The notes under the pieces were generated by a model. It saw only the letters and a list, made by a program, of their open reading frames with translations, ran no database searches and was not told the origin of the DNA. Position numbers and translations under genes: made by a program. Shown piece after piece: positions 30,876 through 38,203 of a stretch of 64,000 bases of DNA. This stretch comes from Paramecium tetraurelia (lineage: Eukaryota > Ciliophora > Oligohymenophorea > Peniculida > Parameciidae). The stretch lies in assembly GCF_000165425.1 (NCBI RefSeq), contig NW_001799333.1, positions 415,898 through 479,897 on the forward strand, given 5' to 3'. How positions within the stretch are numbered: position 1 is the first letter of the stretch; each line of letters opens with the position of its first letter.

Positions 30876-31092
30876 TCCTTTTTCTATAATTCTTATTCCA
30901 TCCTGTATGAATTACGAGTGTACTAAATGGAAGAGAAAAATTAACATTATAATGTTATTATTAATTTATGTTAATTTGTGAATAGTTAGATTCAAGTGAC
31001 AGCGAGAGTTTCGATAAATTGATTGCAATCGTATAGCATTTTAAAATAGATAAAGATATCATTTAAAATACCCGTTTCTAAATTACAGTAAA
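30876..31092. promoter_or_regulatory. Divergent (head-to-head) intergenic promoter region
   Basis: 217 bp separates the start codons of two oppositely oriented genes. The sequence is AT-rich with no TATA or factor-binding motif that I can defend. A role in transcription initiation for both genes is inferred from position only. Confidence 0.5.
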
Positions 31093-32143
31093 ATGAGTTA
31101 TTCTATCAAATTTAAGAGATATCCAACTGGATTGTTAGACCTTTCTAATGAAATCCTTGATTACTTATAAATCGAATAACATCTATCAGACAGGGATTTT
31201 TCAAGTCATTTTCATACTATCTCATTTTTAAAACATTATTTTGATGAAGCATGCTTGATTTATACAGTTGTTGAAAAATACTTAGAAAGTCGATCAAAAG
31301 ATAATTATAAAGAAGTATTATATAAGGATAGTATATAACTAATTTAATTAAGATAAGAGAAATTATTTATCATTTATGCATTATTACTAGTGTAATTATA
31401 AGAATATGTTGATGAAGAATCATTTGATATATTTCTAGAGGGGTATTTTATTATATAATTATTTAAGACTATAAAAAAAGTTATAATTAAATGCCTAAAT
31501 TAAATTTGCATCCTTAAGAGTAAAATCAAAAGAAATACTAGAACATACTCTATTGTTGATTGATGAATTGAGAGAAAATAAATTAACATAAAAACAAAAA
31601 CATTCAAGTAGGCAATCAATAATTAACAAATCTATGATGACTGCACGATAATAAAAAGAATCCTAGCAATAAGCATATTTAAGTTTATAGAGTTAATGGA
31701 TGTTCACAGAGTTATAAAACAATTAAGTATTTTGTAGAGAGTTAATACCAAATTTACGATTTATCATTAAAAATTATGTTAAGTCGTTTTAAAAAAATAA
31801 AGACGATGGCCCTAAGAGATATAATAAAAATTCATCAATATTTGACTTAAAAAATAGGTTCAGTGTTGGAAGTTAAAGAGTAAGAAATGGTCTGATTGAT
31901 TTACCAAATTTAGGACCAATGGAAATTTTAATGAGCACATAAATATTTCCTAAATAAAAACTTAATGATTTTTTTGATGACGAATAATTAAAGCACACTT
32001 AAATTATTACATCTTAAATTGATGGTCTGCTGAACGAAGAACTACTAGTTAATTTAACTGGAATTGAGATGATAGATATGGATTCTAAAAGTGAATCTAC
32101 CATTTCAAGAGCTACAATGTAACAAGTATTCAAATATCATTGA
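31093..32143 (+). CDS. Hypothetical helical protein, 341 residues
   Basis: Two exons; intron 31443-31467 (25 nt, ends AAG); the sum is 1,026 nt. Begins MSYSIKFKRYPTGLL. The N-terminal third is helical (FLKHYFDEACLIYTVVEKYL; LFIIYALLLVQLQEYV), the middle Lys/Gln-rich, and the C-terminal third carries short conserved-looking blocks (NSSIFDLKNRFSVGSQRVRN; IDLPNLGPMEILMS; TGIEMIDMDSKSEST). No family recognised. Its TGA (32141-32143) is 14 bp from the stop of the convergent gene. Confidence 0.65.
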
Positions 32144-32156
32144 TACAATATATAAA

Positions 32157-35100
32157 TCAATATACTTTTAACACATTACCATCAAATTATAATGTAGATA
32201 CACCATCTTATGTTAGAATTGTATTATTTTAAGTGTTTTGCATTAAGATTAATGATTTTGGTATATTATCACATTATATTTCAAATGCTTTAAATGCTTC
32301 AATGTTGATATACCAACATAAGTTATTAGAGATGGCAATAACATTTTACAAATATTTAAAATAAAACATTTGATTGCTATTTTTTAATTTAATAACCCTT
32401 TCAATACATAAAAATGAAGCCTTAATAATTTGCTGAATTCTGATCTTATTATTATTAGAAGTCTTTTCCAATAACAACCAATATTCACCAAAATCTAGTG
32501 CCTAAGCTTCATAGTAGGTTGTTCTATAACCAATCTTTTTGAATAAGTTTCTTTTAGGCATATATACAAAACAATCCCGTGATCCCACTCTTCTTATTTC
32601 GTTTGTTATTCCAAACCCAAAAAAGTAAAGTTCATCTCCATTTATCAAATATGTACATTCATCTACATTTTGTAAATCGAATATCGGGACTTACACTTCT
32701 TTGGTTACTACATGAGGTGATTAAACGTGTAACCCATTCTACTATATAATTTATAATTGGTTATTCTCGATTTCCTCTTATTCCTCCTCTGCAAATTTTT
32801 AGAAATTAACTAATTCTTCAAAGATTAAGCATGAGTGTTATTGGTGCGACTCATATTGATTTTGTGATAAAGATATGTAAAGGAGTAAATATTTAAATGT
32901 CCTCTAATTTAATGATTTGACCAATAGAATTAATTAACCTTCTTCTGTTGATTAAACGCATAATACTTGTAAATTAGTAGATAAAATGTTTGTATAAATT
33001 TTAAATACTTACTAATATTGATAAATTGTATTGTTTTAATATCCAAATAAAGTTTATTGTAATTAAGTCTCTAATAATTATAATGGTTGTGATGTAAAGA
33101 ACAATTCTTTTTAATTTAATTTTTAATATTTTCTAATAAATTATATTAATTAATAAGAATCATATCTTTATTCTTCATTCTCTTTTAGCATTTCTTCAAG
33201 TAATGGTTTTATATTAGGGAATTAAAATTATTAAAGAGCCAAATTTATTTCCATTAAATAAAATTATTATTCTTTAGTATTTTTAATCTGATAATTTGAA
33301 AGCATCCTTAAAAATATCAATCCTAAACAGTAAATATTAGCTTTACTGGGATTAATAAAGATCTAATTCTAAGTTAAATTTTAAGTGTAAGCCAAAAAAG
33401 ATTTAGGTTCCATATACTCTAATGATGACATAAATGGTACTGATTTTTCTTAGTAAATACTAGGAATGTTAGTTTTGTAAATAATAGAAGCAAAAACAAC
33501 TGAATTAGGCGTAATAAAGACATTATTTGGATGCATATCCTAGACAAAGATATCATGTGATCTAAGTTCATTCAATTTCTTAATGCATCTCTTCATTAAT
33601 TTAAAATTGCAATCTTCTTTTTAAATAAGCTCACAATTCTCTATAATATAATTTAATCTAACTTTTCCATCATATTATTCCATACTCAAAAAGAAATCCA
33701 ATAAATAAGGGTCCAAATATTTGCAAACTTAATAACATTCATCAAATGATTCAAACTCCACATGTACTATTCTTTAGATTAGTATGAAATTCTATTGTTC
33801 TTTTGAAACAGATAAAATTCTGAATAATGATGGAGTTTGATTTGTAATAGGATAATGAACCTTATTGATAGAGTACGATCCAATCAATTCATCACTTGAA
33901 TTTTATTTAGTGCTTATTTACTTTAATTTGATTTTCTAATCTAACCTTCCATGTTCAAGTAAGATTTCAAATACATTGAATGATGTTATACAATATTTAT
34001 CTTAGGATAAAAATATTCTATAAATATTCTGATTTTGTAAATAGAGAATAAAATATTTATGATATATTAAGTTGCATGTAGATACTATCCCATTTATATT
34101 GAGTTTTACACTTCTCTTTTGAGTTAAAGAATACAATATAAGTTCATTTTATTAGGTAATGAAGTAGACATCATTAAATTTGGAAAATCCAAAATCTTAT
34201 TTGATTTTTACATCTGTCTGTATAGAACTATTTTAGGTATTAATTAATAGACAACCATCCTAAATTCCAATTATTAACAGTTAATTTTAATTATTGATAA
34301 GATATTTTAGATCATATTGAATTTCATTTTGGTTTTCATCATTGTATAAATATTGACCATCATAATAATGAACTGTATTATTAATAATTGTGAATGATTT
34401 TACATTCTATGCTTATTTCAAAGGCTTAATTATTTTCTTATAGATAGGCAATTGTTATTTTGATCTAAAGGAAAATATTTATACGAATTCATAAAAAGTC
34501 AAGTTTTTATCAGAGAAGAACAAAACAATTTCTTAAATCTTATCAAATAAAAGTTATTGAAGTAATGAATTATCGATTGAATCTGTTTACTATTACAGGA
34601 AATCATAGAATTATTAGGTTGTGATATAATTTCTTTATTCTATATCAATAATGCTAAATATTTCTTATAAATTTTGTGAAGTAAAGTAAATTCTATCATG
34701 AAAATTCTTATTAGGTTATTTTTAAGTCTAAGCAGTGTCTTTGAATTTGAATTAATCTTCAATATATGTTGTAGGGCTATGTTAATTAATTTATAACTGC
34801 AATTAATAATTTTTTTAAGCAGAGTCAATCCTCTCTTTTTTCTATTACTCTTTAGTAGCCAAATATTATCTTAGCGATATTTATAGCATTTCCAAAGTAT
34901 CTTCTAGTTACTCGGAACTAAGCTTAATTGTGATCATGCCAATCATATTTTCATAAGCGAAATACAATTTATTATCCTATATGTAAGCACTCCCATTTAT
35001 GATATTAATCTATTGTCCATTTTGATCAATTAATTCATACTAAGTGTATGATTTTTAATTTCTAGTTTATGTTAAATTATAAAAGACTACTTTATTGTTT

Positions 35101-36383
35101 GAGTATTCAAAAAGTACGTTCTTGATATTATTGTTAGGATTGTTATTATTAGTGTTTGGAATATCTTGAATGAGATCCTTTAACTCAGACTTTGATTGAC
35201 AATTCAATAATTAAACATAATCAGATGCTTTAAGATCGTAAAGATATTATCTATTTCTATAGAGTAAAAGGATAATATCTTTAATGTAGCATTCAAGGAC
35301 ATTCTTCTATTTCTAATATAGGGATTCAATAATATTGGCGAAATCTATATTCTTTTGTTTTAATTGTTGCCTAATTTCAGGGCCTTTGTAAAAGGAGTTG
35401 ATGATAAGAATAGCTATATCTTCTAAGTCGTTGACAAGATTGGCTCTAAAATCTTTAATTTTATTTTTGATTAGTCTTCTAGAGAATCTGAAGGCGGAAA
35501 AACTCAAGTCTAATTTAAATACCTTTTATTTATGATAAGTCATGTAAACATTGGATGGCTTAATTCTTAATTACAAATATGAATTACCCTGAATGAACAT
35601 AGAAATTTTAATGCATTTATTATATAGTATTGAGGAGATACTCTAATAGGGGATGGATATCTTATGGTTACAATTAAATATTCTCTAAAGACACATCGCA
35701 ATACTCTTATTCTGAAAATACATAGAAATTATTGTGTTTTTTATTCAATCTAAAGCTGAAATCATGTATCTTATAGCTTGCAAACTGCTAGAAAAAGAGA
35801 TAGTTGTCAAGTAGATTAGCCACAAATTCAATTTGTTTGGTGTACAATATTCTGATTTTTCTTGATTCCCCTATGTTGTTGGTGAATCCTACAACAATGC
35901 TGTAATCATTTTTATTAATTAACCAAACTCTAAAATTATTTGATTTGATTACTTAGTCCAATAAATGTTTGATTATTCCAAATGAGACAAGAAGAATCTC
36001 AACATCTAGATGACATCTGACATTAATTACTTGTCTAACAATTAGATATCATTCAGAAATTTCTCAAGTATAAATTCTCTTTGTTTTAACAACTATTCCT
36101 GCCCTTGATTTTTCCCTTAAACTTTTGGCTTCTTATCTCTGTCCTCACCTGGAATAGACATTCTTGATGTTGTGTTCTTTCTTACTGGCACTCCATCTGA
36201 TGAAATATTTGAAACTTATTTTGAAATAGTGCTTAATTTAGTATTGTTCTGTTCTTTGGAAGATGTGCTCTTTTATTATTGTTACTAGTTTTCTTATATT
36301 TTTTCAGTTTAATCTTCACCATTCGATATCTTTATTACAGGAACTGTCTAATTCATTTTAGCATTAGCACAAGCAGCACCCAT
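32157..36383 (-). CDS. Double-pseudokinase protein with degenerate EF-hand and beta-repeat region, N-myristoylation-like start
   Basis: 1,393 residues in three exons (introns about 36009-36031 and 35572-35593; the sum is 4,182 nt). The start MGAACANAK fits N-myristoylation plus palmitoylation. First kinase-like domain, about residues 110-400: the loop usually HRDxKPxN reads HSGIKPSN, so the catalytic Asp is lost, and DFG is replaced by LDLSF. A middle stretch of hydrophobic strands follows (KVVFYNLTQTRNQKSYTQYE), then a degenerate EF-hand pair (IFSIIDIEQRNYITTQQF; SDKNLTFYEFVQIF), then more strand repeats. Second kinase-like domain: FVQDMHPNNVFI keeps Asp and Asn but lacks HR and has no DFG; EYMEPKSF stands for APE. 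The C-terminus has strand repeats (TYLINGDELYFFGFG). It is probably a membrane-linked scaffold or regulator without kinase activity; that role is inference. Confidence 0.7.
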
Positions 36384-36418
36384 TTATTAATATTAATATA
36401 AATCAATAAAATATTATT
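36384..36418. promoter_or_regulatory. 35-bp divergent spacer between pseudokinase gene and kinase gene
   Basis: Only 35 AT-rich bases separate the start codons of the double-pseudokinase protein (minus) and the CaMK-type kinase (plus). Any core promoter elements must overlap or lie within the coding sequences. Shared control of the pair is inferred from position alone. Confidence 0.55.
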
Positions 36419-38203
36419 ATGAGTATTGAAATCGCTTCTTTTTTTGATAATCCAGATCTTGTGGCAAAGTAGACATCTCTGTGGTAGATTCTGAATTAGG
36501 AAGTTTACGATGTAAATCTTGTCTCAATTTCTAGAATGATAATATTATTTTCGAGCAGGATTGCCACAAGATTGGTAGGAAATCAAAATAATTGAAACCA
36601 ATTACAATCTAACTAGGAAATGAGCATTTATATTACATTAAAAAAGAAACAATGTTTTAGTTATAAACTACTATTGTTATGATGAATTTAATTAAACATG
36701 ATTAACATGGTAACATAATTAGGTTGTCACGAAATGGAAAGTATATTGATTTTAAATTTGAAGATTACGATGCTCTCAAGAATCTTCTAAATCACAGATG
36801 TTTATAATCTACATTCCATGATGAATTTGGAGTTGCCAAAATGATTGGCAAAGGAAGTTTTGCTAAAGTTTATTTGGCAACAAAAAAGTCTACTGGTATA
36901 AATTACGCAGTCAAAGCATTTAATAAAGAATTCATGTTAGAACAATTTAAAGGTAGGGAATCATTGGAAAATGAAATTAAAGTGATGAGAAGATTGAATC
37001 AAGAAAATCTAGTAAGACTGCATGAAGTTTATGAAACTTAAAACTCCATTTATTTTGTTTTGGATATCTTAAAAGGAGGTGAGTTGCTATCCAGAGTCAA
37101 ATCTTAGCCATTATCTGCCCCTAATCTACAAAAATTAATGTATAATCTCATGAAAGCCCTCTGTCATCTACATTCAAAAAAATGCATCCATCGAGATTTG
37201 AAACCAGAAAACCTATTATTAAAAGAAAAAGATAATGATACTGATGTAGTGATTGCAGACTTTGGATTAGCTTGTTTTCTAAATGAAGATATCCTATTTA
37301 AGAGATGTGGAACACCTGGATTCGTTGCTCCTGAAATATTAGCATATAAAGAAGGGGATCCATTCTATGACGAAAAATGCGATGTGTTTAGCGCAGGAGT
37401 AATCTTTTACATACTCTTGACTGGTAGACAACCCTTCCAAGGGACAGACTACAAAGCTATCCTGAGAGCAAATAAGAATTGTTAGATCAATTACAACCTA
37501 AAATAAATATAAACAGTAATTAAAATAATAATCATTATAGGGTCCTTTATAATTAGTAGATCTGTTAAAGAAGATGTTACATCCAGAACCTAAAGGAAGA
37601 GTGTCATCTGAAGATTGTCTAAAACATCCATACTTCAAGGAGATCTTCAAGGAGTAAGACTTGATCGATATATAAGACAATCTTCGAGAATATGAAAAGG
37701 ACTTTGTCTATGGATTAGGAAAGTAATAAGGGTAATTAACACTTTCCTATTGAGATAGACCTTCAAGTCAAGTTGGATCTATGCAATTACAATAGAGACA
37801 ACCTGCTTTGAATGGGAGAATAGATACTATGGGATCATTTTCTAATGTATCCAATAATGGATCAGTAACTAGACTAGATTAGAAACCCTAACCTCATTAA
37901 AGCAAATTTAGTCAATTCAGTCAATCTATGAAGTAGTAGCTCAATTCTGATGCAAGTATCTAATTGATTATATTGAATATAGATTCACCAGTAGCCAAGA
38001 AAAGCAATTAATCAGATTTACGAAAGACTGCTCTGAAAAATTCGTTTTAATAATAAATTAATCAAATGGAAAAGGAGGATGATTGTGTTGACGATGAGGC
38101 ATCTCAATTGGAAGATGCAATATCAAAACTAAATGCTTAAACACCAAAAATGGGGTTGACAAAAGCAAGTTCCTTTAAAGTACAAAAATCAACAATGGAA
38201 TGA
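36419..38203 (+). CDS. CaMK-type serine/threonine protein kinase
   Basis: 569 residues in four exons; introns of 23 nt (about 36509-36531), 25 nt (about 37512-37536) and 27 nt (about 37731-37757); the sum is 1,710 nt. The 27-nt intron contains an in-frame TGA, so reading without splicing would end the protein early. Residues 1 to about 125 form a strand-rich, possibly PH-like region (HDQHGNIIRLSRNGKYIDFK). The kinase domain follows with [49 protein letters not shown] and DVFSAGVIFYILLTG, all catalytic residues present. The tail of about 170 residues is Ser/Gln-rich with an acidic patch (EKEDDCVDDEASQLED) and may be regulatory. No EF-hands, so not a CDPK. Active kinase; target unknown. Confidence 0.9.

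Follow-up and report, generated by a model that had tools for sequence, protein, structure and literature searches.

Within the window, the whole 64,000-nucleotide stretch of Paramecium tetraurelia DNA that was analyzed, the gene at 32157..36383 on the minus strand encodes a functional protein that contains two degenerate kinase domains and is strongly constrained in its coding sequence. The interpretation we favor, with moderate confidence and on the strength of the sequence, is that of a large membrane-tethered pseudokinase protein that would act as a scaffold or regulator and would not transfer phosphate. Such a protein offers a defined starting point for studying the function of inactive kinases in ciliates. 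The gene, its parts and its immediate neighbor are located as follows:

32157..36383, minus strand: whole gene, with ATG at 36383, TGA at 32159-32157 and 1,393 codons in the ciliate code (TAA and TAG read as Gln)
36357..36383, minus strand: N-terminus MGAACANAK, which fits N-myristoylation and palmitoylation of a nearby Cys
35930..35952, minus strand: intron 1, 23 nt (25 nt at the matching position of the duplicate gene)
35566..35587, minus strand: intron 2, 22 nt, inside the catalytic-loop motif, between HSG and IKPSN (the intron at this site is also 22 nt long in the duplicate gene)
35184..35954, minus strand: pseudokinase domain 1, approximately residues 144-385, spanning both introns, with HSGIKPSN (256-263) and DLS (277-279)
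34434..34703, minus strand: degenerate EF-hand region, approximately residues 546-635, first loop DIEQRNYITTQQ
33099..33893, minus strand: pseudokinase domain 2, approximately residues 816-1080, with VQDMHPNN (932-939), the Gly-rich loop replaced by GSYSIN and no DFG Asp
36384..36418, no strand: gap to the divergent kinase gene, 35 bp (5 nt longer in the duplicate)
36419..38203, plus strand: neighboring kinase gene with intact HRDLKPEN and DFG, its limits taken from the sequence-only reading

The reading frame is open only when TAA and TAG are read as Gln, and the spliced frame ends in a single stop codon, TGA. A DNA search of the genome (69 Mb in 231 contigs) with 1,301 bases of the gene identified one further copy, 85% identical, on contig C91. 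This duplicate gene (G000:C91:87937-92171) matches end to end, encodes 1,395 amino acids and carries introns at both positions; 1272 of the 1392 aligned residues are identical. Across 1392 codon pairs, the overall dN/dS between the two copies is 0.047 (simple Nei-Gojobori estimate), all ratios being approximate because dS is near 1. Thus, given the matching intron sites, the protein identity and the dN/dS value, this is a constrained gene and not a splice artefact, and the start codon gains support from a 5-nt indel that lies immediately before the ATG. The coordinates, strand, length of 1,393 codons and motifs (HSGIKPSN, LDLSF, VQDMHPNN and MGAACANAK) given in the sequence-only reading were all recovered, and its splice model is borne out by the introns of the duplicate, which sit at the same two sites.

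When the protein is divided into regions, dN/dS is 0.022 in pseudokinase domain 1 (residues 96-385; dN = 0.021; 277 of 290 residues identical to the duplicate), where residues 96-143 show no differences between the copies (0 of 48), 0.024 in the EF-hand region, 0.039 in the first strand-rich region (406-475), 0.086 in the middle strand-rich region (636-800), 0.104 in the Asn-rich linker and 0.073 in the C-terminal region (272 of 313 residues identical); for residues 476-545, dS is saturated, hence no ratio is given. The value for pseudokinase domain 2 (818-1080), 0.043 (dN = 0.024; 251 of 263 residues identical), lies near the gene average because dS in this domain is low (0.56), perhaps in part due to a conversion-like tract at 33095-33211. 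In that tract, 117 nt are identical to the duplicate, against about 85% identity elsewhere; a simple uniform model predicts approximately 4e-6 runs of this kind, which points to a recent gene conversion affecting the end of this domain.

In sequence comparisons, the similarity of both pieces to kinases is beyond chance, although for domain 1 it extends over only some 60 residues at the catalytic loop (approximately 227-285); the outer limits of this domain are putative, and a whole kinase fold around that segment is suggested by spacing. As isolated pieces, domains 1 and 2 match PF00069 with E = 0.0022 (17.9 bits) and E = 3.5e-4 (20.5 bits), respectively, both short of the curated cut-off of 31.7 bits, and with the full-length protein a Pfam scan up to E = 10 listed no kinase family; both observations count against the pseudokinase interpretation. 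A kinase profile was built from 24 of 30 kinases fetched from the same genome, the other six having no frame of 150 amino acids with a motif that could be used. Against this profile, the domain 1 piece scored 16.0 bits compared to 8.2 for the best shuffle (971 of 1000 shuffles with a reported score), and the domain 2 piece 16.2 bits compared to 7.1 (957 of 1000). In profile-profile comparison (hhalign), domain 1 aligned with kinases at 85.5% over 57 columns and domain 2 at 96.7% over 173 columns, whereas four other pieces of the protein, used as controls, reached 0.17-0.34%. The best sequence match in the PDB (phmmer) is ribosomal S6 kinase alpha-3 (RSK2; E = 0.0054), which aligns with residues 904-1059 of domain 2. 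The two domains have no recognizable similarity to each other (hhalign, 0.5%), and NCBIfam yielded only sub-threshold matches to lanthionine synthetase, at residues 909-947.

A chance resemblance in an AT-rich, Gln-rich sequence would be compatible with the sub-threshold Pfam scores, with the lower genome-kinase profile scores in the full-length context (13.0 bits for domain 1 and 10.1 bits for domain 2), with the composition-bias correction of 9.0-10.5 bits in domain 2, and with the failure of structure prediction and fold search. Single-sequence AlphaFold models had a mean pLDDT of 30.6 for exon 3 (residues 259-1393) and 40.4 for domain 2 alone, and the fold search with the low-confidence domain 2 model gave a best E of 1.4 among the best 50 of 74 matches (E up to 10), a chain of a RAF1-HSP90-CDC37 complex being ninth among these 50 (E = 2.9). 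These results are uninformative rather than negative. However, with piece scores about twice those of the best shuffles and with the gap between the two domains and the control pieces in profile-profile comparison, chance is an extremely improbable explanation. The sequence-only proposal of two degenerate kinase domains is supported by the shuffles, the profile-profile comparison and conservation in the duplicate alike.

Catalytic residues were assigned where two alignments with an intact kinase concur. In domain 1, G258 occupies the position of the HRD Asp (HSG for HRD), and K260, N263 and D277 are kept (DLS for DFG). In domain 2, conversely, D934 and N939 are kept, H936 stands at the position of the loop Lys, K955 at that of the DFG Asp and K979 at that of the APE Glu, and the Gly-rich loop is reduced. 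In both alignments, the position of the beta-3 Lys appears to be taken by R170 in domain 1 and by L842 in domain 2, the N-lobe alignment being weak. The alpha-C Glu of domain 2 and the C-lobe landmarks of domain 1 are placed differently by the two alignments, which counts against the pseudokinase interpretation. The HRD Asp, loop Asn and DFG Asp are never found together in one domain; as read from the aligned sequences, the two domains have lost different residues. The catalytic losses themselves had been correctly quoted as motifs in the sequence-only reading, and the difference between the two domains was contained in those motifs but was not drawn out in its text.

The two copies agree at all 14 checked positions, degenerate catalytic residues among them, such that the sole homologue found is equally degenerate. 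Neither of the outcomes that the sequence-only reading had named as refuting, a fold prediction without kinase-like lobes or homologues with intact catalytic residues, was encountered, the structure predictions being too poor to speak for or against. With two copies known, this conservation spans a single duplication, a point that weighs against the pseudokinase interpretation, as does the fact that some proteins with comparable residue losses are active kinases. It is conceivable that domain 2 phosphorylates substrates with substituted metal-binding residues: both copies share D934 and N939, and the C-lobe of this domain aligns with kinases over 173 columns and with ribosomal S6 kinase alpha-3 over residues 904-1059. 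Such an atypical active kinase is nevertheless decidedly unlikely given the Lys in place of the DFG Asp, the His for the loop Lys, the Leu for the beta-3 Lys and the Lys for the APE Glu.

In the pseudokinase interpretation that we prefer, N-terminal acylation probably tethers the protein to a membrane and neither kinase fold probably catalyzes phosphotransfer; the diverged kinase folds, together with the degenerate EF-hand and strand-rich regions, would offer surfaces for binding other proteins, which they would scaffold or control allosterically. In active kinases, the Asn and Asp equivalent to N263 and D277 hold Mg-ATP, and domain 1, which keeps both, may bind nucleotide as a conformational switch, whereas domain 2 probably binds none. 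A more specific version, in which the complementary losses of the two domains make up an undescribed, membrane-tethered, nucleotide-gated ciliate switch with domain 1 as the nucleotide sensor, is put forward with very little confidence.

An MG start, a sixth residue that is small and a Cys nearby make up the dual-acylation consensus, to which MGAACA, present in both copies, conforms; the first 15 residues are the same in the gene and its duplicate, so that the lipid-anchor-like start previously noted is, as a sequence feature, retained. The EF-hand region, as an isolated piece, matches PF13833 (E = 1.2e-4) and PF13405 (E = 2.2e-4), both below the curated cut-off, and the best EF-hand E-value in the full-length protein is 0.0012. 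Key positions of the consensus acidic loop of EF-hands are 5 and 12, and the loop DIEQRNYITTQQ, with Arg at position 5 and Gln at position 12, departs from the canonical form; the assignment as a degenerate EF-hand is supported by a sub-threshold Pfam signal and by conservation in the duplicate. The beta-strand repeats proposed earlier are not established because the three strand-rich pieces show no similarity to one another (hhalign, 0.2-1.4%). Matches to PF16755 (E = 0.057) and PF23634 (E = 0.0051) were below the cut-off and were set aside. A Kelch propeller at the C-terminus was considered by eye and rejected, no Kelch family being reported by Pfam at E up to 10.

When the genome was searched with the whole protein and the best candidates were scored, five matches resulted, all in the gene and its duplicate, and the middle and C-terminal pieces, searched in the same manner at E up to 10, matched these two genes alone; because only the best candidates are scored, a distant paralogue may be missed. 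The retention of a single duplicate pair and the constraint over the whole length of a large multidomain protein would both suit a structural protein of the cortex or cilium whose kinase folds serve as mere packing modules and regulate nothing. However, the PDB contains no match for the middle region and only antibody chains for the C-terminal region (best E = 0.088), and none of the 12 matches of the whole protein (E up to 10) is an axonemal chain, so the protein cannot be recognized as any of the axoneme proteins with solved structures; furthermore, the acylation-like start points to the membrane. We therefore regard a structural role as unlikely. Searches for relatives in viral contigs (two stretches fitting a pattern, none confirmed) and in prokaryote genome contigs (seven stretches, none confirmed) carry little meaning because ciliates are unlikely to be represented in these collections. 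The lineage-specific status proposed in the sequence-only reading is not established by searches that covered this genome and the viral and prokaryote contigs.

The neighboring kinase, encoded head to head with the gene, matches PF00069 with E = 1.6e-57 over residues 122-334 of a 341-residue piece. The 35-bp gap between the two starts is real, and both genes are still adjacent in the duplicate block, as would be expected if the pseudokinase protein were an allosteric partner of this active kinase. This co-retention is not specific, however: between 25.6 and 39.0 kb, the window is collinear with 15 kb of C91 except for stretches without a match at 28.9-29.3 and 31.0-32.06 kb, and since the surrounding block is syntenic, the adjacency of the pair needs nothing beyond an absence of rearrangement. 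Moreover, a passage in a 2025 perspective on transcription describes Paramecium intergenic regions as extremely small and sometimes absent (PMC12716044), which makes tiny gaps such as this one normal in the genus. The partnership suggested in the sequence-only reading thus finds no specific support, the arrangement being explained by block synteny and small intergenic gaps, and we hold it to be highly improbable. Within the same block, blastn against the 15 kb of C91 matched both flanks of 30976-32060 but not this stretch itself, indicating that the gene located there was probably lost from, or has decayed in, the duplicate block.

Several known systems share parts with this protein. PF00069 pseudokinases likewise combine kinase homology (here, at the catalytic loop in both domains and in the C-lobe of domain 2) with altered HRD and DFG motifs, but this protein falls below the Pfam cut-off and has two degenerate domains with an EF-hand region between them, plus strand-rich regions. 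In CDPKs, an active kinase is followed by EF-hands in one chain and the N-terminus is often acylated; kinase-like domains, an EF-hand-like region and, as in many CDPKs, a potentially acylated start are found together here, whereas both kinase domains are degenerate, the EF-hand region is degenerate and lies between them, and the CDPK order of active kinase followed by EF-hands does not occur. Proteins with two kinase domains include JAK, GCN2 and plant tandem kinase proteins; these, like RSK2, have two kinase folds per chain, but here neither domain has the full catalytic set. In literature searches on ciliate or Paramecium pseudokinases, the kinome, EF-hands, kelch and beta-propellers, this combination of parts was not found; pseudokinases as such are known, and it is the arrangement of parts that is possibly undescribed. 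According to a passage in PMC9608856, citing Bemm et al. 2009, P. tetraurelia has the most protein kinase genes of any eukaryote, 2,602, with 40 domain architectures, and a passage in PMC3341644 lists 38 kinase-domain genes of Ichthyophthirius outside known families as likely pseudokinases.

The two kinase pieces, searched separately, gave weak matches in the genome beyond both copies (best E = 5.0e-4 and 7.0e-4), in eight and six places, respectively, one of them shared; six of the resulting 13 regions were examined (L054-L059), and beyond their kinase regions none of them matched with an E-value below 0.9. Four of the six score as kinases, namely L054, L055 and L057 (239, 237 and 124 bits) and L059 (114, 77 and 14 bits in three frames). 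L058 (G000:C81:57500-64500) contains an open frame of 2,120 amino acids with a kinase-like segment (HGSINLQT and VDFG) that is not reported by the kinase profile at E up to 1. L056 (G000:C101:586500-593500) encodes a further degenerate kinase (57 bits), in which the catalytic loop reads HQALRMRN and DPH replaces DFG, preceded by a Cys-rich stretch.
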